From positions 30,983-94,982 of the forward strand of contig CACZIV010000009.1 of the NCBI GenBank assembly GCA_902781305.1: a stretch of 64,000 bases of DNA. The letters run 5' to 3'. Source of the DNA: Pseudoselenomonas ruminantium. GTDB lineage: Bacteria; Bacillota; Negativicutes; Selenomonadales; Selenomonadaceae. The notes under the pieces are model-generated. The model searched no databases and was not told the origin of the DNA. It saw nothing but the letters and a program-made list of their open reading frames with translations. Below are positions 34,881 to 44,472 of this stretch, piece after piece. Positions within the stretch are counted from its first letter, which is position 1. The number at the start of each line of letters is the position of its first letter. Made by a program: the position numbers and the translations under genes.

Positions 34881-37109
34881 GTGAAAGGGATAAAGAGCTG
34901 GCTTCGACGGATAGCAGCCCACAGCCGGGGCGGCATTCGTCGGCAAGTGCTGTTCTTGGTGCTGGTTTGTGGCCTTAGCACCTTTCTGGCGACGCTTATG
35001 CTGTTTGGTTATTCTCTATATGGCCTGCAGGAAGTGTTGGAAATGGAAGGCCGGGATATAGAGGAAGTGGTGGCAGAGTCCGTGAGTGACTCGGTGGGGA
35101 AACATACCCGGGCATGGCTGCGGACCACGGCAGAAAATGAGGCTGCTCACATGGGCAGGGAACTGGCAGTCAATAGTGATGATGTGGAGTTTTTGGCTGG
35201 CAGTATGACCATGCTGATGCAGTCACGGGACAAATACGGAATGCGGCAGATTGTCAATGCTAGAGACATGGAAGATATTGCCGCTGGTACGCCTTATCTC
35301 CATTACAGTCCTCAGTTGGCTGCTGAGGGAGTTGATGGAGAATTGGCGGCAGAGATTGGTCAGGCAGCTAATTTCGTGGATGTGCTGATACCCCTGAGTA
35401 AAACCTATTGGGGCTATCGCAGTGTTTTTGTTGTCGCATCTCGGAAGGGATATTCCATTTGTGTGGACAACATTCCGGGCGAACCCGGGCAGAGCATCTA
35501 TCCTTCACCGGAGGCCAGGACGGCGTTTTTGGAAAGATACGACGCCAGGCAGCGTCCCTGGTACCAGATGGCTCAAGCCAAGGGAACGTGTACGTATACG
35601 GATGTCTTCCTGGCGGAAGAGGGCTATCTGGGAATGGGGTGTGCTGCTCCTTACTATGATGAAAATGGGTTTGCCGGGGTGGTAGGCATCAACGGCAGCA
35701 TTGAGGATTGGCAGCACCAGGTCAGTCAGGTTTCCATTGGCAGGACGGGCATCAGCTTCTGTCTGGATGGCAATGGGCGAGTAGTGCTGTCCTCCGTGGG
35801 CGAAGGAGTGCTGGCTCCCGGACTTCAGGGGGCAGATTTGAGGGAGAATCCTGAACCTACTCTGGCAGAAGCCGCCCGTCGCATGACTGCCGGAGAGAAT
35901 GATGTGGTGAAGGTGTTGGTGGATGGGCAGGAATACTATTTGGCCTTTGCGCCCCTGCAAAATGCAGGCTGGAGCTTCGGAACGCTCATTGGTCAGGACG
36001 AGGTCCTGGCGCCGGCCCAGGAGGTGGCCTCCCTGGTTCAGGAGGAGATGAAGGATTTCTATGAAATTTTGGGGCAGACCTTTGCGGGGGGGGCGGGAAA
36101 GGCCCTGTTGCTGCTGCTGCCCTTGGCACTGGCGGCCTTTTTCACCAGCGGCGTCCTGGCTGACCGCCTGGTTCGTCCTATCCGTGCGCTGACGAAAGGA
36201 GTACAGGAGATAGCGGCAGGCAATCTGGACAAGAAGCTGGAAATCCACACTGGCAACGAGGTGGAGGAGCTGGCCGCTTGTTTCAATGAGATGACAGAAG
36301 AACTGAAGGAGCATGTTCAAAGACTCTCCCAGGCGGCGGCCAAGGAGGAGCGAGTCAGGACGGAACTGGAGGTGGCGGCCAGGATTCAGGCGGGGCTGCT
36401 GCCTGCACCTTTGACGCCAGCTGTCCAAGCCGGGAAATTCAGCCTCAGCGCCTTCATGCAGCCGGCTAAGGAAGTAGGAGGAGACCTTTATGATTTCTAC
36501 TTCCTGGATGAGGACCTTTTGGTCGTCACCGTGGCTGATGTATCGGACAAGGGCGTGCCTGCGGCCCTCTTTATGGTCATGACCAAGACGTTGTTGAAGG
36601 ATCAGGTGTTGCGGCGGCGCAATGAAAAGGATTTGGCTCAGGCAGTGGCAGAGGCCAATGATGCCCTGGTACAGAGCAATACCACGTTCATGTTTGTAAC
36701 GGCCTTTATCGGCATATTGAACCTGTCCACAGGGAAGTTTATCTATGTCAATGCAGGACATAATCCGCCCCTGCTTTGCAGGCGGGACAGAGCGGAGTAC
36801 CTGCCCAAGGCACAAAACCCGATACTGGGGGTACGAGGGGGAATGGCCTTTGCAGCCGAAACGCTGGTCTTGCAGCCGGGGGATTCGCTCTTTCTGTACA
36901 CCGACGGGGTGACGGAGGCCAGGGATGAAGCAAAGGAATTTTTCGGTGAGCAACGGTTGCAGGAGATTCTGTCGGCAACGGCCGGACAGGGAGCCGAAAA
37001 GCAGATGGAGACGGTTTTGGAAAAGTTGTTTGCTTTTGTAGGGGAGGCCAATCAATCAGATGATATCACGATGTTGGCGCTGGCCTATGGCAAAAAGGAT
37101 GAGAATTAG
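34881..37109 (+). CDS. Membrane dCache-HAMP-PP2C serine phosphatase (SpoIIE/RsbU-like)
   Basis: A 742-residue sensor phosphatase. Helix 1 spans about residues 22-46. A large extracytoplasmic dCache-like region (about 46-400) includes the Cache motif RQRPWYQMA. Helix 2 is about 406-428, HAMP about 429-482, and the PP2C/SpoIIE domain about 505-740 with metal-binding residues intact: VGGDLYDF, ADVSDKGVPAALFM, TDGVTEARD, SDDITML. Such enzymes dephosphorylate STAS proteins in partner switching. The STAS gene starts 8 bases downstream, so it is the likely substrate, and the signal is presumably an external small molecule. Confidence 0.9.
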   Translation: MKGIKSWLRRIAAHSRGGIRRQVLFLVLVCGLSTFLATLMLFGYSLYGLQEVLEMEGRDIEEVVAESVSDSVGKHTRAWLRTTAENEAAHMGRELAVNSDDVEFLAGSMTMLMQSRDKYGMRQIVNARDMEDIAAGTPYLHYSPQLAAEGVDGELAAEIGQAANFVDVLIPLSKTYWGYRSVFVVASRKGYSICVDNIPGEPGQSIYPSPEARTAFLERYDARQRPWYQMAQAKGTCTYTDVFLAEEGYLGMGCAAPYYDENGFAGVVGINGSIEDWQHQVSQVSIGRTGISFCLDGNGRVVLSSVGEGVLAPGLQGADLRENPEPTLAEAARRMTAGENDVVKVLVDGQEYYLAFAPLQNAGWSFGTLIGQDEVLAPAQEVASLVQEEMKDFYEILGQTFAGGAGKALLLLLPLALAAFFTSGVLADRLVRPIRALTKGVQEIAAGNLDKKLEIHTGNEVEELAACFNEMTEELKEHVQRLSQAAAKEERVRTELEVAARIQAGLLPAPLTPAVQAGKFSLSAFMQPAKEVGGDLYDFYFLDEDLLVVTVADVSDKGVPAALFMVMTKTLLKDQVLRRRNEKDLAQAVAEANDALVQSNTTFMFVTAFIGILNLSTGKFIYVNAGHNPPLLCRRDRAEYLPKAQNPILGVRGGMAFAAETLVLQPGDSLFLYTDGVTEARDEAKEFFGEQRLQEILSATAGQGAEKQMETVLEKLFAFVGEANQSDDITMLALAYGKKDEN

Positions 37110-37117
37110 GAGGAAAT

Positions 37118-37459
37118 ATGTCTGATTTACCAATCCGTTACAATAGCGAAGAAATAAACGGCTGGCGGGTTTGGCAGCTGTGGGGACGACTGGATCGTAC
37201 CACTGCGGAGGAAGCGGCAGAAGAAGGGGAAAAGCAACTCGCTGTTTGCCGGAAACTGGCCCTTGACTTGTCAGGCCTGTCCTATGTTTCCAGCGCTGGC
37301 CTTAGGACTATCCTGAAGCTGGCTGGTGGGGCAGAACAGGCGGGAAAGTCCATTGTGATTATATCTTCTGAGGGGATGGTGAGGGAGATTTTAGAAATGG
37401 CCAGGCTGGATTTGTTTGTCACTATCCATGCTTCAGTGGATGATTTGAAAAGCGTATAA
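37118..37459 (+). CDS. STAS-domain anti-anti-sigma factor-like protein
   Basis: A 113-residue single STAS domain (RsbV/SpoIIAA type). The phosphorylation region is intact: DLSGLSYVSSAGLRTILK, with the target Ser in SSAG. By family knowledge, the unphosphorylated form binds an RsbW-type kinase. The likely kinase here is the ATPase domain fused to the MATE exporter at the end of the operon, and the phosphatase is the gene just upstream. The stop is followed directly by the STAS-condensation gene. Confidence 0.9.
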   Translation: MSDLPIRYNSEEINGWRVWQLWGRLDRTTAEEAAEEGEKQLAVCRKLALDLSGLSYVSSAGLRTILKLAGGAEQAGKSIVIISSEGMVREILEMARLDLFVTIHASVDDLKSV

Positions 37460-37474
37460 ATGGAGGGAATCATC

Positions 37475-39067
37475 ATGAATTTCGCAATCAGACAGGAGCG
37501 TCAGGGGGATAAGCTGACCATGTTTTTGACCGGGGAGTTTAACAAGCTGGCTATGGACGCCTTTGACAAGGAATTTTTGCTGGCGGCAGAGGGGGTGAAG
37601 GAACTTTTATTGGATTTTTCCGGGGTTACCTATCTTTCTTCGGCAGGGCTGCGCTCCTTGCTGCAGGCAGCCAAGCTTATGGAAAGCCAGGGGGGCAGTT
37701 TTACCGTGCTCTATCCGCAGGAGGTGGTGATGGATGTCTTTGAGATGACGCATTTTGACCGCTTCATTCATATCGTCCGTGAGGGGGAGGAGCAAGTTCC
37801 AATCAATAGCGCTTACTACCCTTTGCGTCCCATCCAGCGGTGGCTGACAGACACGCATTTTCGGCGGGCCAAGTCTACCATGATGAATACAGGCGCCCTG
37901 GTACGCCTGGAACCTGCCGTGGATTTGGAGCGGCTGGCGGCAGCAGTAAATGGCCTTTTGGAGTCTTATGATATCTTCCGCTGCCGTTTGGTGTTCCGTC
38001 CCGATACCGGGGAATTTTGCCAGCGCTTTGACGGGAAGGTGGCAAAAGTCTATGTGGAAAGCCTGTCGGAGGAGGGACTGGAGGCGCGCAAGCAGGAGCT
38101 GAAGCAGCCCTATGACCTCATTGACCGGCCGCTGTATCGGGTCAATATCATAAAGACCCCGGAGTCCAAGTATATCTATATGGACTTTTACCATGCCATC
38201 ATGGACGGGGCGGCCATCGCCCTGCTTTTCTGGCGGGAACTGGAGAAACGTTATACCCACGGCAATGAGGCCGTGGCAGCCAAGCGCCAGCCTGCCAGCT
38301 ATGCGGAATATGTCAGGGAAGAGGCAGCCTTGCCTGAGGATGAGCTGGCCAAGGGCAGGGCTTACTGGGAGACCATGCTGGCCGGGTTTGACAAAAATAC
38401 GCACCTGCCCCCTATGGATGGAGGAAATGTGGATGAGGGACCGGAGCATGAGATGGAAACACCCCTCGAGGGCATAGAGAAGGGCTTCTTCAAGGGGAAG
38501 AATTTCGGTGAGAACACCTTCTTCATGGCGGCCGCCATGCTGGCTATCGCCAAGGCGTCCGGACGCAGGGAGGCCATCATCAGCTGGGTGCACAACGGCC
38601 GGGTCACTTCGGCTGAACGTCGTCTCATGGGCCTGATGCTGGATCAGTTCCCCCTGCGCTGGGACTTTGAGAGGGATATGACCGTAGGGCAGTTCCTGCC
38701 TAAGCTGGAGGCCCGGATAAATGAGGGCATCCAGTACAGGAAGGGTATGGACAAAATCTATGAGGAAGGCTTGGAGGCAGGCTGCGCCTGCTTCATCCTG
38801 CAGAAGGGAACCCTGGGACGCCGGGGAAGTGTGAAGCTGGGAGACACCCAGGCCGTCATTGAGGAAATGCCAGCCAACGAAATATCGGCGGCAGAAAATA
38901 CGCTGGATATCGAGCTGAATGCTCATGATGATGGCACCTATTCTCTGGTATTGGACTATGACCCTCACTGCTACTCGCGTAAGGCCATGGAGGCGTTCAC
39001 TGAGCAGGTGGAAAAGATGGCTGTTGCCCTGCAGGATGGTGGGCGGAAGCTGGCAGAACTGTTGTGA
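37475..39067 (+). CDS. STAS domain fused to an NRPS condensation domain
   Basis: A 530-residue protein. Residues 1 to about 100 are a second STAS domain with an intact phospho-site region (LDFSGVTYLSSAGLRSLLQ). From about residue 110 it is a condensation (C) domain: PLRPIQRWL at the start, then FYHAIMDG at about 237-244, the HHxxxDG motif with the first His replaced by Tyr and the catalytic second His kept. C domains form peptide bonds between carrier-bound acyl groups. The fusion suggests that peptide synthesis is switched by phosphorylation of STAS. ATG 37475 follows GGAGGG (37462-37467) by 7 bases. Confidence 0.85.
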   Translation: MNFAIRQERQGDKLTMFLTGEFNKLAMDAFDKEFLLAAEGVKELLLDFSGVTYLSSAGLRSLLQAAKLMESQGGSFTVLYPQEVVMDVFEMTHFDRFIHIVREGEEQVPINSAYYPLRPIQRWLTDTHFRRAKSTMMNTGALVRLEPAVDLERLAAAVNGLLESYDIFRCRLVFRPDTGEFCQRFDGKVAKVYVESLSEEGLEARKQELKQPYDLIDRPLYRVNIIKTPESKYIYMDFYHAIMDGAAIALLFWRELEKRYTHGNEAVAAKRQPASYAEYVREEAALPEDELAKGRAYWETMLAGFDKNTHLPPMDGGNVDEGPEHEMETPLEGIEKGFFKGKNFGENTFFMAAAMLAIAKASGRREAIISWVHNGRVTSAERRLMGLMLDQFPLRWDFERDMTVGQFLPKLEARINEGIQYRKGMDKIYEEGLEAGCACFILQKGTLGRRGSVKLGDTQAVIEEMPANEISAAENTLDIELNAHDDGTYSLVLDYDPHCYSRKAMEAFTEQVEKMAVALQDGGRKLAELL

Positions 39068-39082
39068 AGAAGGGATGGGAAC

Positions 39083-42000
39083 ATGGATAAAGAAACATGG
39101 TGCACCAGATATCTGTCTGAGGAAAGTCCCGAGTGCCTGCCCCTGCCTGATGGTCGGGAGTCGGGCAGCTGGGGGCGGCAAGCTCTGAGGCAGACTGTAA
39201 AGGTGAATGCTGCGGAATTGTCGGCAAGCTTGCTGCTCCTGCTGGGACTTTACGGCGGTCTGCAGGAAAGCGCCTTTCTCCTGCAGCAGGGAGAGTGCCT
39301 AAGGCCGGTGCGGCTCAGCTGGCAGGGAGAGGAGTCTCCTGAGGATTTCATTGTACGGGTGCAGGGCTGGCTGGAAGAAACAGGGAATTTTACCTGGCAG
39401 GAGGAGGAAATAGCGGAACTTTTGGGCTGGGAACCGGGCCGGGGGCTGATTCTCTGTCTTGATGCGGAGCGTGGCTGGATGCCGGGGGACAGATATGCCC
39501 TGGGATTCTGCACTGGCGGAGGCGAGGCCTCCATCTGCTATGATGAGGGCAGGTACAGTCCGGCCTTCATCAGGGAACTGCTCCTGGCCTGGGGGCAAAT
39601 CCTCCAAAGTCTGCGGACAGCTCCGTCGCTGGACAAGGTGCGGGTGACTTCGGCAGAAACCGAGCAGCGGCTGAATTCCTTCAACGACAATGCCCATGCC
39701 TACGACCGCCAGACTACGGTGGTGGAGCTTTTCCGCCAGCGGGCGGCAGAGTTTCCGGAGAATACGGCGGTCATTTACGAGGAGCGGGCCTATACCTATG
39801 CCCAGGTGGAGGATATGTCTGACCGGCTGGCCGCCTGCCTTGCCCGGCAGGGGCTGGGCAGGGGCGACCGGGTGGCGGTGTTCATCCCCCGCTCCGAGTA
39901 CATGGTTATCGCTTCCCTGGGCGTGTTGAAGGCAGGCTGTGCCTATGAGCCGCTGGACCCCAACTATCCGGATGAGCGACTGTCCTTCATGGCCAAGGAT
40001 GCAGATGTGAAGGTCATCATCGTGGCTGATGAACTGAAACCAAGGCTGGCGAATTTCCCTGACTACAAGGGATTGGTGCTGACCATTTCCGAGGTGACCA
40101 GCCTGCCCCAGGTCACGGAGAAAGAAATTAAGGGGCTGGAGGGGCCTGAGCCTGAGGACCTATTCATCCTCATCTACACTTCCGGTACCACCGGTGTGCC
40201 CAAAGGCGTGCGCCTTCTGCACAGCAATCTTATGTGCTATGCTGCCTGGTACCGCAGGTACTTTGCGCCTACGCCGGAGACCAAGGTCAGCTGCTACAAC
40301 AGCTATGGCTTTGACGGCTCCTTGGGAGATATGTATCCCATCCTGACGGTGGGGGGGACCGTGGTGGTGGTTCCCGAGGAAAAGAAGCTGGATCTGCCTG
40401 CCTTGGCAGAGCTTATCCGGCGTCACGGCATTTCTATCTCCGATATGCCCAGCCAGGTGGGGCGGCAGTTTGCCTTGACCATGGACTGCCCCAGTCTCCG
40501 CTATATCGTGGGGGGCGGGGAGAAGCTGGTGTCCTTTGAACCGGTCTATCCCTATATCATGGCCAATGAATACGGCCCCACAGAGGCCACCGTGTCCGTC
40601 ACCTGCTATGATGTGACGAAATATGAGCCGGATATACCCATTGGCACGCCCAATGACAATACGGACATCTACATCGTGGATGTTTATGGCCGCCGGGTGC
40701 CGCCGGGGGCTTTGGGCGAGCTTTGGATAGCCGGGCCCCAGGTGGCGGGAGGTTACCTGAACCGCCCAGAAAAGACCAAAGAGGTCTTTGTTGCAAATCC
40801 GTTTTCTACTGACCCTGACTATGCCACCGCCTATCGTACCGGAGACATCGTGCGCTACCTGCCCGATGGCAATATCCAGTTTGTGGGGCGTCGGGATGGA
40901 CTGGTGAAGATAAGGGGCTTTCGGGTGGAACTCTCGGAGGTCGAAGGGGTCATCCATGACTTCCCGCAGGTGGAAAATGCCGCTGTGGCGGCCTGGGATA
41001 ATCCCGCCGGGGGCAAATTCATCGCCGCTTATGTGGTCTCCAAGGACCCAATCGACCGGGACGCTTTGGCTGAGTTTATTCGGGAGCGCAAGCCCCCTTA
41101 TATGGTGCCAGCGGCCATCGTACAGTTGGAAGCCATCCCCCGGAACCAAAACGGCAAGCTGAACAAAAAAGCCCTGCCGGTGCCGGAACTGCGGGGGAGC
41201 TTAGAGGAGTATGTGGCGCCTAAGAATGACATAGAGACAGAGCTTTGCAGGGGCTTTGCTGCTGCGTTGGGAATGGAGCGGGCCAGTGCAGAGGAAGATT
41301 TCTTCCAGGCCGGTGGAGACAGCTTAAGCATCGTGCGTCTGCTGTCTGAGTGCCGTGACCTGAAGCTGAATTTCAATCTGATTTATGAGGGCAAGACTCC
41401 TGCGGGCATTGCCGCCCTGCTGGCAAAGCGCAGCCGGCAGGCAGCCGGGGAGAAGAAGGAAAGCCATTTCTTCGGCCCTTTGCAGGAACTGCACTACGAC
41501 TGGGGCAACTCTTTGGAGGAGGGCTACGGCCTTCACTGCGATGCCTATATCACGTTAGACGTTGCTACTGACCTGGAACGGCTGGCGGTGGCGATTGAAA
41601 CGGTGCTTTTGGCACATCCGGCGATGGATGCCAGGCTGACGATGGTAGAAGGAGAGCTGCGCTGGAAGCAGGGGGATTTGCAGGGATTGCGCCCTGTCGT
41701 GGAGGAAATGACCCGGGCCGAGTATGAGGAATTGAAACCCAAACTGCGGCAGAGCCTGAACAAGCCTGATACCCGCATGTTCTCCATGCGTCTCTTTGCC
41801 ATCCGGGAGAAAGAGGGAAGCCTTAGCAAGGTGTTTTACTTTGACATCATGCATCCCATCATCGACGGGGATTCTATAGACATTTTCCTGCAGGATGTGG
41901 ATGCCGCCTACCGGGGTGAGAAGGTTCATCCTGAGGAGTACAGCATCTTTGACTATTATGATGAAATAGAGGCGAAGCTGGGTACTGAGGCCTATCGGCA

Positions 42001-42715
42001 GGAACAGCAGTGGAATCGAGATTTTGTCCGCTCCTTTACCAACCTTCTCAGTGAGATGCCCGGAGATCTTGAGGACAAGGGGGAAAATGATACCAAGGAT
42101 ATCTTTGTGCCCATCCATGTGGACTTGGCGGCAGTGGACGCTTTCACCAAGGCACAGGGCATCACGGACGGCACCTTGACTGCAGCCGCCTTTGGCCTCT
42201 TGCAGGGCCGCAACAATGGGGAACAGGCGGGAGTGGCGCTCACCATCTATAATGGCCGTGACGACATCCGCTTTGAGCGCACTGTAGGAGCCATTTATCG
42301 TCACTATCCCCTTTGCGTGAGATGGGAAGAAAACATGGGGGCGGGGGATTTTGTCCGCCAGACCCAGGAAAATGTCCTGCTTTGCCGCCGTCATGCGCTC
42401 TATGAAGGTGATCCGGTGCCGCTTATCGTGGCTTTCTCCTATCAGGGGGAGGATATGGACACGGGTTTTGACTTCTGCGGGGGACGGGCGGAATATGAGG
42501 AAATCGAGGATTTTGAGGAGGAGCATTTCGACTTCTTCGTCCATCGCCGCAGCGACGATTTCTATGTGAACCTGACTTATAATACCAAGGAGTACAGTGA
42601 GAAATTTGTAGAGACCTTCCTGCAGAATTACGCCCGGGTCATTCAGGCGCTGGTGGCAGGAAAGAAACCTGCAGATATCATAAGGGAACTGGCTGACAAG
42701 GAGGTTGTCCCTTGA
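39083..42715 (+). CDS. Non-ribosomal peptide synthetase (partial C, A, T, C)
   Basis: A 1210-residue synthetase. Residues 1-190 look like only the C-terminal lobe of a C domain, without HHxxxDG. The adenylation domain (about 195-690) has LIYTSGTTGVPKGV (362), GFDGSLGDMY (specificity region with the amino-acid-contacting Asp), NEYGPTEATVS, YRTGDIVRY, GRRDGLVKIRGFRVE and NQNGKLNKKAL. The carrier domain has FFQAGGDSLSIVRLL (Ser about 747). A second C domain (about 790-1205) has MHPIIDGDS. No thioesterase or reductase is present. The activated amino acid cannot be told reliably. It is encoded between STAS-C and the exporter. Confidence 0.9.
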   Translation: MDKETWCTRYLSEESPECLPLPDGRESGSWGRQALRQTVKVNAAELSASLLLLLGLYGGLQESAFLLQQGECLRPVRLSWQGEESPEDFIVRVQGWLEETGNFTWQEEEIAELLGWEPGRGLILCLDAERGWMPGDRYALGFCTGGGEASICYDEGRYSPAFIRELLLAWGQILQSLRTAPSLDKVRVTSAETEQRLNSFNDNAHAYDRQTTVVELFRQRAAEFPENTAVIYEERAYTYAQVEDMSDRLAACLARQGLGRGDRVAVFIPRSEYMVIASLGVLKAGCAYEPLDPNYPDERLSFMAKDADVKVIIVADELKPRLANFPDYKGLVLTISEVTSLPQVTEKEIKGLEGPEPEDLFILIYTSGTTGVPKGVRLLHSNLMCYAAWYRRYFAPTPETKVSCYNSYGFDGSLGDMYPILTVGGTVVVVPEEKKLDLPALAELIRRHGISISDMPSQVGRQFALTMDCPSLRYIVGGGEKLVSFEPVYPYIMANEYGPTEATVSVTCYDVTKYEPDIPIGTPNDNTDIYIVDVYGRRVPPGALGELWIAGPQVAGGYLNRPEKTKEVFVANPFSTDPDYATAYRTGDIVRYLPDGNIQFVGRRDGLVKIRGFRVELSEVEGVIHDFPQVENAAVAAWDNPAGGKFIAAYVVSKDPIDRDALAEFIRERKPPYMVPAAIVQLEAIPRNQNGKLNKKALPVPELRGSLEEYVAPKNDIETELCRGFAAALGMERASAEEDFFQAGGDSLSIVRLLSECRDLKLNFNLIYEGKTPAGIAALLAKRSRQAAGEKKESHFFGPLQELHYDWGNSLEEGYGLHCDAYITLDVATDLERLAVAIETVLLAHPAMDARLTMVEGELRWKQGDLQGLRPVVEEMTRAEYEELKPKLRQSLNKPDTRMFSMRLFAIREKEGSLSKVFYFDIMHPIIDGDSIDIFLQDVDAAYRGEKVHPEEYSIFDYYDEIEAKLGTEAYRQEQQWNRDFVRSFTNLLSEMPGDLEDKGENDTKDIFVPIHVDLAAVDAFTKAQGITDGTLTAAAFGLLQGRNNGEQAGVALTIYNGRDDIRFERTVGAIYRHYPLCVRWEENMGAGDFVRQTQENVLLCRRHALYEGDPVPLIVAFSYQGEDMDTGFDFCGGRAEYEEIEDFEEEHFDFFVHRRSDDFYVNLTYNTKEYSEKFVETFLQNYARVIQALVAGKKPADIIRELADKEVVP

Positions 42716-44472
42716 GTTTGCAAGATAAAGTAGATCATGCTTATTTTACCCGCAAGATGTTTATGGGGGCAGTGTTGCCTGCCCCTTTGGCCGGGATTGG
42801 CCTGGCCTTGGCGGAAATGGGACATACAATTTTGGTGGGGCATGCTATCGGCACGGAGGGGCTGGCTGCTGTGGGCTTTGTCTCGCCGCTCTTCCTGCTG
42901 GCGGCTTTCTTTGTTTTTGGTCTTTCTATGGGCGGGGCAGTGATTTATGCCAATCTCATGAATGAGGGAAAACAGGAGGAGGCTCTTGCCATCTTCCGAT
43001 TCTTCCTGCGACTGGCTGCCGTTATCGGCTTTGGCATGGCAGTCGGGGGCTTGCTGATGGAGGATGGGGTGCTGACGCTATTGGGCACATCTCCGGAGGA
43101 TGGCGAAGTCTACCAGCTGACCAAAAGCTATATCACGTTTATCCTGCTCGGGATTCCTTTTGAGATTCTTATGGAGCTGGTGACCGCCTACTTGCGGAAT
43201 GACAATGCCGATACGTTGGCCATCACCCTGCAGACTATCAGCGGTTTGGCCAATCTGGCTGTCAGCGCCATGCTGCTCTTATTCTTTGACTGGGGCATTA
43301 CCGGTTGCAGTTTTGGCTTTTTCATGGCCAATGCGGGAACCTTTGCCATTGCCATGGGCTACCTTTGTCTGGGCAGAGGGCAGCTGCGGGTGTTGGGCAG
43401 GGCAGCTTCCTTCCGGGAGGCCTTCAAGGCCCTTCGCTTGGGTTTTGCTACATCATCGGAGTATATCTTTGATGCCATCTTTACCTTGGCAGCTATCCAC
43501 CTCATGATGGATTTGGCAGGCACCGAAGGGGTAGCGGTGTTCAATATCATTGAAAATCTTTCCCTGCTGTTCATCTTTATCTATGAGTTTATCGGCAAGA
43601 CGGCCCAGCCGCTTTTTTCAACCTTCTTTGCCGAGTGCAATTTCACCGAGCTGCACCGTGTCTTCCGCTATTGCCTGCTATATTCTCTCCTGTTGGGCCT
43701 CCTGGCTACGGTCGGGGTTATGCTCTGGCCTCAGGTACTGGATTTGCTCTTTGGCATGGAGGATATCGGTGAGGTGGGCAAGGCCTACTATGCGGCTAGG
43801 GTCTTCTGCATCGGCACCATCTTCATGGGGGTGTGCCTGCTGCTGCAGAATTATCTCCAGTCTGAGGAGGATGAAAAAGGGGCTTTTCTGGTGGTCTTTA
43901 TGCGGCGCGTTGGCGCCGGCCTGCCGCTGCTGTTCCTGCTGGCAGAGGGGGGCTTTTACGTCTTCTGGTTTGTTTATCCCTTGGGGGAACTGGTGACTTT
44001 GGCGGTAATCTGGTTTTACCAGCGGCGCCGGGGAGAGCGCAAATCCATCCCTGCCGAGCGGGTCTACAGTGTTTCCTTCCTGGGCTATGGGGAGGCATTA
44101 ACCCAGCAATTGGAGGCCATAGAGGACTTCGCTGTCCGCTGGGGGGCTGATGAAAGGAAACGCTACCTCCTGCGGCTGGCTTTGGAGGAAATCTGCGAGG
44201 AGGAAAGCTTCCGCTTCAAGAGGGAAGCCGTGCTGGTGCAGCTTACTTTGATTGCCCGGGAAGATGGGATTTTTGAGCTTCATTTTCGGGATGATGGAGA
44301 GGAGTTTGACCCCTTCCAGCTGGCCAAGGAAGCGCTGGCCCATCAGCCGAAAGGAATGGCAGAAGCTGCCCGGAATACCCGCGGTATTGGTCTGCATATG
44401 GTCAAAAGCCATGCGGTCAATTTTTTTTATCGCAGCTATCAGGGATTCAATACATTGACGCTGTCTATCTGA
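42712..44472 (+). CDS. MATE-family exporter fused to an RsbW-like ATPase (anti-sigma kinase) domain
   Basis: A 586-residue protein. Residues 1 to about 445 form a 12-helix MATE transporter. Residues about 450-586 are a cytosolic HATPase_c_2 domain: DDGEEFDP (G1-like) and RGIGLHMV (G2). At the N box the sequence is LALEEICEEE, where the family has Asn (EEALTN), so kinase activity is uncertain. TTG 42712 overlaps the NRPS stop by four bases, with AAGGAGG at 42698-42704. The likely role is to export the peptide and to bind or phosphorylate the operon's STAS domains. Confidence 0.85.
   Translation: MSLQDKVDHAYFTRKMFMGAVLPAPLAGIGLALAEMGHTILVGHAIGTEGLAAVGFVSPLFLLAAFFVFGLSMGGAVIYANLMNEGKQEEALAIFRFFLRLAAVIGFGMAVGGLLMEDGVLTLLGTSPEDGEVYQLTKSYITFILLGIPFEILMELVTAYLRNDNADTLAITLQTISGLANLAVSAMLLLFFDWGITGCSFGFFMANAGTFAIAMGYLCLGRGQLRVLGRAASFREAFKALRLGFATSSEYIFDAIFTLAAIHLMMDLAGTEGVAVFNIIENLSLLFIFIYEFIGKTAQPLFSTFFAECNFTELHRVFRYCLLYSLLLGLLATVGVMLWPQVLDLLFGMEDIGEVGKAYYAARVFCIGTIFMGVCLLLQNYLQSEEDEKGAFLVVFMRRVGAGLPLLFLLAEGGFYVFWFVYPLGELVTLAVIWFYQRRRGERKSIPAERVYSVSFLGYGEALTQQLEAIEDFAVRWGADERKRYLLRLALEEICEEESFRFKREAVLVQLTLIAREDGIFELHFRDDGEEFDPFQLAKEALAHQPKGMAEAARNTRGIGLHMVKSHAVNFFYRSYQGFNTLTLSI

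Follow-up and report, generated by a model that had tools for sequence, protein, structure and literature searches.

Partner switching is known mainly as a form of sigma factor control, which is the classic use of the PP2C, STAS and RsbW parts (PMC8256260). The kinase motifs of RsbW proteins comprise the N, G1 and G2 boxes, and in Mycobacterium smegmatis RsbW2 phosphorylated the STAS protein RsfB while RsbW1 and RsbW3 did not (PMC7693655). In Actinoplanes, an RsbW-like domain binds Sigma-SsdA through the STAS domain fused to this sigma factor (PMC10733313). In this study, we analysed a 64,000-nucleotide stretch (hereafter the window) of Pseudoselenomonas ruminantium, contig CACZIV010000009.1 of assembly GCA_902781305.1, where positions 34881-44472 hold a five-gene operon in which parts of this kind are joined covalently to an exporter and a biosynthetic enzyme. 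We tentatively read the operon, with a little less than even confidence, as a partner-switching circuit that acts on a membrane transporter and on the enzyme supplying it, with the unphosphorylated STAS-condensation fusion (STAS-C) docking on a kinase-dead tail of the transporter.

An earlier sequence-only reading had described five closely packed genes here, and the open reading frame (ORF) list of the window contains all five, on the + strand and at the positions given there, with Pfam domains that agree. The first gene (34881-37109) encodes a sensor phosphatase with dCache_1, HAMP and SpoIIE-type PP2C domains. Its catalytic motifs, to which we assign the presumed PP2C roles, are conserved in the alignment, and its top NCBIfam match is SiaA (99.9 bits, cut-off 700). 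The second (37118-37459) encodes a free STAS protein, in which we take Ser59 of the motif YVSSAGLR to be the phospho-acceptor by analogy to SpoIIAA Ser58. The third ORF opens at 37460, and its likely start is 37475, which is preceded by GGAGGG and is where 6 of 12 aligned relatives begin. It encodes STAS-C (37475-39067), with Ser61 in the STAS domain and H..DG at 245-250, both numbered in the 535-residue ORF. The condensation fold was confirmed, and starter condensation domains were among the top structural matches, which would suit amino acid acylation, if weakly. With this start, the genes are separated by 8, 15 and 15 bases and end in a 4-base overlap, in keeping with the gaps of 8-16 bases or overlaps reported before.

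The fourth gene (39083-42715) encodes a nonribosomal peptide synthetase (NRPS), in which adenylation (A), thiolation (T, GGDS) and terminal condensation (C, H..DG) domains are all present with their core motifs; Pfam gave no thioesterase match in this protein. The roughly 200 residues preceding the A domain (39083-39690) have no Pfam match and are conserved less than the remainder; they may be the remnant of a condensation domain. The fifth gene (42712-44472) is a single ORF that joins a MATE transporter part (42712-44031) to an RsbW/SpoIIAB-like tail (44032-44469), and the protein is 97% identical to that of Selenomonas ruminantium ATCC 12561. All domains assigned by Pfam (dCache_1, HAMP and SpoIIE; STAS; STAS and Condensation; AMP-binding, AMP-binding_C, PP-binding and Condensation; MatE and HATPase_c_2) lie above curated cut-offs. 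MatE does so clearly (86.9 bits, cut-off 24.9) and HATPase_c_2 barely (30 against 27.4 bits), and TIGR00797 stays below its cut-off (97.4 against 147.4). The intact PP2C residues, the two STAS phospho-site regions and the A/T/C motifs reported before were borne out in the alignments, which include the H..DG of both condensation domains.

Modelled alone, the tail reached a mean predicted local distance difference test score (pLDDT) of 84. A Foldseek search of this model against the PDB placed SpoIIAB from SpoIIAA complexes on top (1tid, E 5.9e-7, template modelling score (TM) 0.70), with further matches to RsbW with RsbV and UsfX with RsfB and, more weakly, to SiaB. The predicted model and these matches give the tail the GHKL fold of anti-sigma type. 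The tail lacks the N-box Asn, which we take to be the Mg-binding residue as in SpoIIAB. This Asn was found in 0 of 26 tail rows (24 distinct genes) from loci with STAS-C, NRPS and tailed MATE (type I) or with STAS-C and tailed MATE but no adjacent NRPS (type II). It was kept in 14/14 short standalone RsbW-like proteins, counted from 17 rows without MATE after exclusion of L023 (478 residues, Asn present), L024 (541 residues, Arg) and L154:8795 (208 residues, weak match, Met); here and below L denotes a locus, G a genome (G000 being that of the window), g a genus and f a family. The tails of L012-L014 also have Asn in place of the G1 Asp, and an unrecognisable G2 box. An intact kinase in what the sequence-only reading had called a MATE-RsbW fusion was rejected on these decayed motifs and the missing Asn. 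The tail thus probably does not phosphorylate; we infer that it binds STAS. Since the tail is degenerate at its kinase motifs, there is no intact kinase within the window operon.

The presumed target of phosphorylation is well conserved. Ser61, His245, Asp249 and Gly250 of STAS-C are invariant in alignments of 11 and of 13 sequences, and the Ser preceding the invariant one is Ala in L008, L010 and L015. The phospho-acceptor Ser is likewise kept in the free STAS protein of the window and its five aligned relatives; the free STAS gene is an optional part, occupying this position in 5 of the 18 loci with an adjacent NRPS. An unvarying STAS serine and undamaged PP2C motifs lead us to expect a kinase at some other place. 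All 19 genomes searched contain a standalone RsbW-like frame (141-189 residues), with the Asn present in all 10 genomes where the N-box was inspected. In the window's genome, the candidate is an intact RsbW at G000:C15:36890-37270, next to two PP2C genes and another tailed MATE, and it is probably the kinase for the operon STAS. L134 (G283) carries an intact RsbW inside the operon, between STAS and STAS-C, the sole such case among the loci seen. Of the 7 genomes of genus g47, to which Succiniclasticum ruminis belongs, 4 have STAS-RsbW-PP2C genes directly after MATE (L008, L015, L143, L162); this set is missing in L006, L007 and L010. The same contig C15 of G000 shows a second partner-switch cluster at L034:7924-15283, with a tailed MATE, two dCache PP2C genes and an intact RsbW. 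It also encodes a 275-residue protein that has no Pfam match and, we presume, resembles a DapF/histidine-racemase relative.

We then compared the operon with relatives. Related clusters recur in Selenomonadaceae and Acidaminococcaceae. A contig search with the window MATE protein gave 17 loci. Where enough flank was available, the order was PP2C, STAS-C, NRPS, MATE, with the exception of L010 (no PP2C in 4.5 kb upstream). L004, L005, L013 and L014 show NRPS and MATE only, and L017 holds a separate PP2C and RsbW-like protein. Since orthologous clusters recur in many genomes, the five-gene set is more than chance, and a chance neighbourhood was ruled out. The expectation of the same five-gene set in other genomes held for the clusters but not for the exact order, which occurs in just 5 of the 18 NRPS-adjacent loci. 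Of 380 class genomes, 86 from 10 genera had a match to the STAS-C profile. STAS is part of the match in 35 of them, including G179 of genus g11, and G222 has a fragment without STAS. The other 50 belong to g11 and match over all or a fragment of the condensation domain (in G181, a fragment beside a type I/II MATE). An NRPS ortholog (at least 61% identity) was present in 22/380 genomes, its adenylation pocket regions being alike though not identical across orthologs. The MATE profile at E 1e-100 matched 26/380, among them 21 of these 22, G222 being the exception. As to a spread of STAS-C beyond the class, a draw of 398 phylum genomes gave full-length matches from family f1 only; in G394 and G511 (f50), and at a second place in G257, the match was merely part of large NRPS proteins.

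We tabulated 32 STAS-bearing and 43 STAS-less condensation loci, leaving aside L004, L005, L013, L014 and G222 (contig edges), the short type III loci of G114, G244, G250, G252 and G253, G181, and eight g11 genomes. PP2C lies on the same strand within 4.5 kb in 22 of the 32 STAS-bearing loci, and a MATE with a recognisable tail lies within 5.5 kb in 30; in the other two, L133 and L134, an NRPS frame or the contig end comes first, and matching MATE genes are on other contigs. Type I comprises 18 loci (17 with PP2C nearby) and type II 5 loci (4 with PP2C nearby). In type III, STAS-C overlaps a divergent MATE by 4 bases (9/9), and the NRPS ortholog is absent beside these loci. Their tails score 22-45 bits against a profile built with type I tails, so that weak scores for type III and IV tails are in part to be expected. 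The window genome itself holds one type III locus (G000:C101), with only 0.3 kb upstream. In type IV (genus g11), the condensation protein lacks STAS, a MATE lies within 5.5 kb in 20 of 43 loci, and 7 of these 20 tails score above 15 bits. The NRPS ortholog is absent in G238, G232 and G263 (complete) and in G227 (82% complete), all four keeping STAS-C and the tailed MATE. The NRPS as the constant target was therefore ruled out, and the earlier proposal of a switch wired into an NRPS-exporter operon is better restated with the transporter and the condensation protein as its targets. The H..DG motif is kept in 26/26 aligned condensation sequences, so the enzyme looks active even in loci without the NRPS. 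Of 23 genomes searched, five contain no adenylation domain that passes the TIGR01733 cut-off: G241, G255, G106, G172 and G186, of which the first three carry type III. In the tree, 37 distinct STAS-bearing sequences fall on one side of one branch (99/97), compatible with STAS gained once or lost once.

Some further features of these loci were observed. G217 (L131/L161) has a duplicated MATE gene: a copy with a shortened membrane part stands beside STAS-C, and the full, tailed copy follows the NRPS ortholog about 5 kb away. The type III MATE at L069:5671-7395 also matches the MurJ lipid II flippase family (3.9e-7). Two or three tandem condensation-only genes stand beside MATE in L072:2197-7964 and other g11 loci, and membrane-type proteins with a DDYSYAFIWDGA-like start are found nearby in L070, L072, L087, L088 and L131.

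RsbW-tailed MATEs also occur beyond this family. MATE proteins matching through their tail were found in 3/298 other phylum genomes (E 1e-25), 4/53 genomes of f50 and 7/52 of f115, these counts overlapping. PP2C and a separate RsbW accompany the tailed MATE in L203, L205, L206, L209, L144, L153 and L034, with STAS also present in L203, L206, L209 and L144. L199 has STAS plus a PP2C-HATPase fusion, L208 has PP2C and STAS, and L207 has PP2C alone; the fetched stretches of L198, L200, L201, L202, L204, L035 and L147 contain neither PP2C nor STAS. Genes of transferase type adjoin several of these transporters. L203 and L205 have LPG_synthase_C, with a formyltransferase-type gene as well in L203, L153 has a GNAT, and the NRPS of L202 and the condensation-domain protein of L144 (see below) belong here too. 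The recurring element is the RsbW-tailed transporter, often under partner-switch genes. Among tailed MATEs not paired with STAS-C, the Asn is kept in 1/8 beside a separate kinase domain and in 7/7 otherwise (Fisher p 0.0014), with n=15, relatedness uncorrected and the classes set after the N-boxes were seen. Kinase adjacency was judged within the fetched stretches, where a recheck found no other kinase frames of at least 60 residues. The comparison omits L208 (a near-copy of L209, with no separate kinase frame found in L208) and L204 (tail unrecognisable); L198 and L199 are short contigs, and the L199 kinase domain is fused to PP2C. This pattern would be expected if the tail was originally the kinase and turned into a docking site after a separate one had become available.

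Two of these loci are described here in their own right. In L202:2-6915 (G811, another Bacillota family), an NRPS with C, A and T domains that ends in a reductase-like domain is followed after 2 bases by an RsbW-tailed MATE that keeps the Asn. L144:5505-12755 (G246) encodes, on one strand, a tailed MATE, PP2C, RsbW, a 635-residue condensation-domain protein placed between RsbW and STAS, the STAS protein itself and a 207-residue frame with a weak RsbW-like match; L203 has a similar pair of STAS and a 209-residue frame.

Starting from parts and conservation read in the sequences, and from a tail fold taken from a predicted model, we infer how the kinase pairing, docking and export might work. 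The dCache domain of the phosphatase would read an outside signal, and the separate RsbW, here probably the one at G000:C15:36890-37270, would keep the STAS serine phosphorylated. On signal, PP2C would strip the phosphate from STAS-C, which would then dock on the kinase-dead cytoplasmic tail of MATE until the separate RsbW reverses the step. Through docking, the condensation enzyme would be brought to the exporter together with the NRPS, the exporter would be opened, or both, and synthesis and export of the product would await the signal. By competing for the kinase or the tail, the free STAS protein would determine the threshold. If this docking is real, the switch controls export and synthesis at the protein level, and exporters controlled in this manner can be recognised in sequence by their tail. 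A broader version, which we hold more loosely still as a possibility, is that a wider Bacillota class uses a PP2C/RsbW/STAS switch to gate export by RsbW-tailed MATEs directly, often beside enzymes of acyl- or aminoacyl-transferase type. In Selenomonadaceae, STAS would have been fused to the condensation enzyme, and phosphorylation would control a synthesis-export complex on the kinase-dead tail, with no transcription step.

Several observations weigh against the docking model. The kinase lies outside the window operon, and that it acts on this STAS is a guess. The Asn stands at its column in 3 of 13 type III tail rows (L070, L071, L126), and in L144 it is kept although a separate kinase is present. 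PP2C is missing nearby in 2 of the 23 type I/II loci (G057, G263), and type III loci keep STAS and tail with PP2C near in only 1/9 (L069 has only 0.3 kb upstream). In g11, the loss of STAS, the absence of PP2C (0/43 loci) and the decay of the tail go together, which speaks for the model, yet they share one side of one branch and count as about one event. The partly expected low scores of the type III and IV tails belong here too, as does L004:561-4268 (G266), where the first ~85 NRPS residues are unmatched and the short contig has no STAS-C; our impression is of likeness to an AraC-type N-terminus, through rearrangement or misassembly. Finally, an ECF-like (extracytoplasmic function) sigma-70 gene adjoins a STAS/tailed MATE/PP2C cassette on the opposite strand in L208:1441-1962 and L209:11734-12255 (genus g117), which slightly lowers the docking model and slightly raises the idea that the circuit feeds a sigma factor elsewhere, with the tail as a membrane sink for STAS. 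That idea also has the classic role of these parts in its favour (PMC8256260). Against it, Pfam found no sigma factor among eight neighbouring genes of the operon, as the sequence-only reading had stated; one of the eight has no match at all, the rest of the window and genome was not scanned, and no systematic sigma search was made beside the other cassettes. We regard it as the least probable of four rivals, all of them unlikely.

The likeliest of these, if still unlikely, is that STAS and tail are static assembly domains that hold enzyme and exporter together with no phospho-switch, somewhat as MlaB is understood to work with the Mla transporter. The eroded kinase motifs of the tail fit such a role, as do the type III pairs that keep both domains mostly without PP2C nearby; the presumed phospho-acceptor Ser, however, is invariant while its neighbour varies, and a same-strand PP2C lies nearby in 21/23 type I/II loci. 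It is less likely that the switch gates the exporter only, the STAS fusion making the enzyme follow the transporter while synthesis itself is unregulated. Cassettes of other Bacillota speak for this, L206 having PP2C, RsbW, STAS and tailed MATE without NRPS, and L203 having LPG-synthase-type and formyltransferase-type enzymes in its place, but STAS and enzyme are joined covalently in 37 distinct sequences, which form one clade. Less probable again is a tail that is still a kinase, a membrane-tethered RsbW that has some other means of holding Mg and that phosphorylates both the free STAS and STAS-C. In its favour, E492 and E493 show no variation across 14 sequences, most tails retain the G1 Asp, those of the S. 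ruminantium group still have RGIGL as their G2 box, and the Asn survives in 8/15 related tails outside the family. Set against these are its absence from 26/26 type I/II rows, the G1 and G2 changes in L012-L014 and the separate RsbW-like frame in 19/19 genomes. As a whole, the sequence-only observation was confirmed and its interpretation partly supported. Control of peptide synthesis and export gains from conserved parts fused to enzyme and exporter and loses from the lack of a kinase in the operon. Homologous loci without the STAS or ATPase parts, which would speak against it, exist in part in g11, where STAS is mostly gone and the tail mostly unrecognisable.

The surroundings of the operon were also examined. 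Among the eight scanned neighbours is a regulator of the sigma-54 activator type, which lies 3.5 kb downstream. Scans for promoters and terminators found sites in numbers about equal to those in shuffles and are thus uninformative on transcript structure. The impression that Arg AGG/CGG codons are commoner than in neighbouring genes was upheld by counting: 101/193 in the operon against 39/152 in nine genes around it (Fisher p 5.8e-7, with each codon taken as independent). Together with the patchy presence (NRPS ortholog in 4/22 genus g1 genomes) and a tree that places S. ruminantium S137 (L009) apart from the window and L001/L002, this suggests horizontal transfer.

The sequence-only reading knew of no described system of this type, and we found neither a STAS-condensation fusion nor an RsbW-tailed MATE described in the literature searched, subscription papers being mostly outside reach. 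The closest relatives are RsbU/RsbV/RsbW and SpoIIE/SpoIIAA/SpoIIAB, which share the PP2C phosphatase, the STAS protein with its serine and the RsbW-fold domain. In this operon, the RsbW fold forms the tail of a transporter and lacks the Asn, STAS is fused to a condensation domain, and the scanned neighbours include no sigma factor. RsbW1, RsbW2 and RsfB of M. smegmatis offer a parallel for kinase-inactive RsbW homologs beside another that phosphorylates the STAS protein, although the target there is SigF and not a transporter (PMC7693655). In the Sigma-SsdA/SipA system the output protein has its own STAS domain, as here, and that output is a sigma factor (PMC10733313). SiaABCD of Pseudomonas, with the diguanylate cyclase SiaD (PMC8457831), and BtrUVW of Bordetella (PMC8256260) use partner-switch parts for other outputs, and the portions of these descriptions that we compared mention no transporter or NRPS fusion. 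A STAS domain works with a transporter in MlaB/Mla (PMC7367683) and SLC26/SulP (PMC8256260); there, STAS belongs to the transporter, whereas in this operon the transporter carries the RsbW fold and the enzyme carries STAS.

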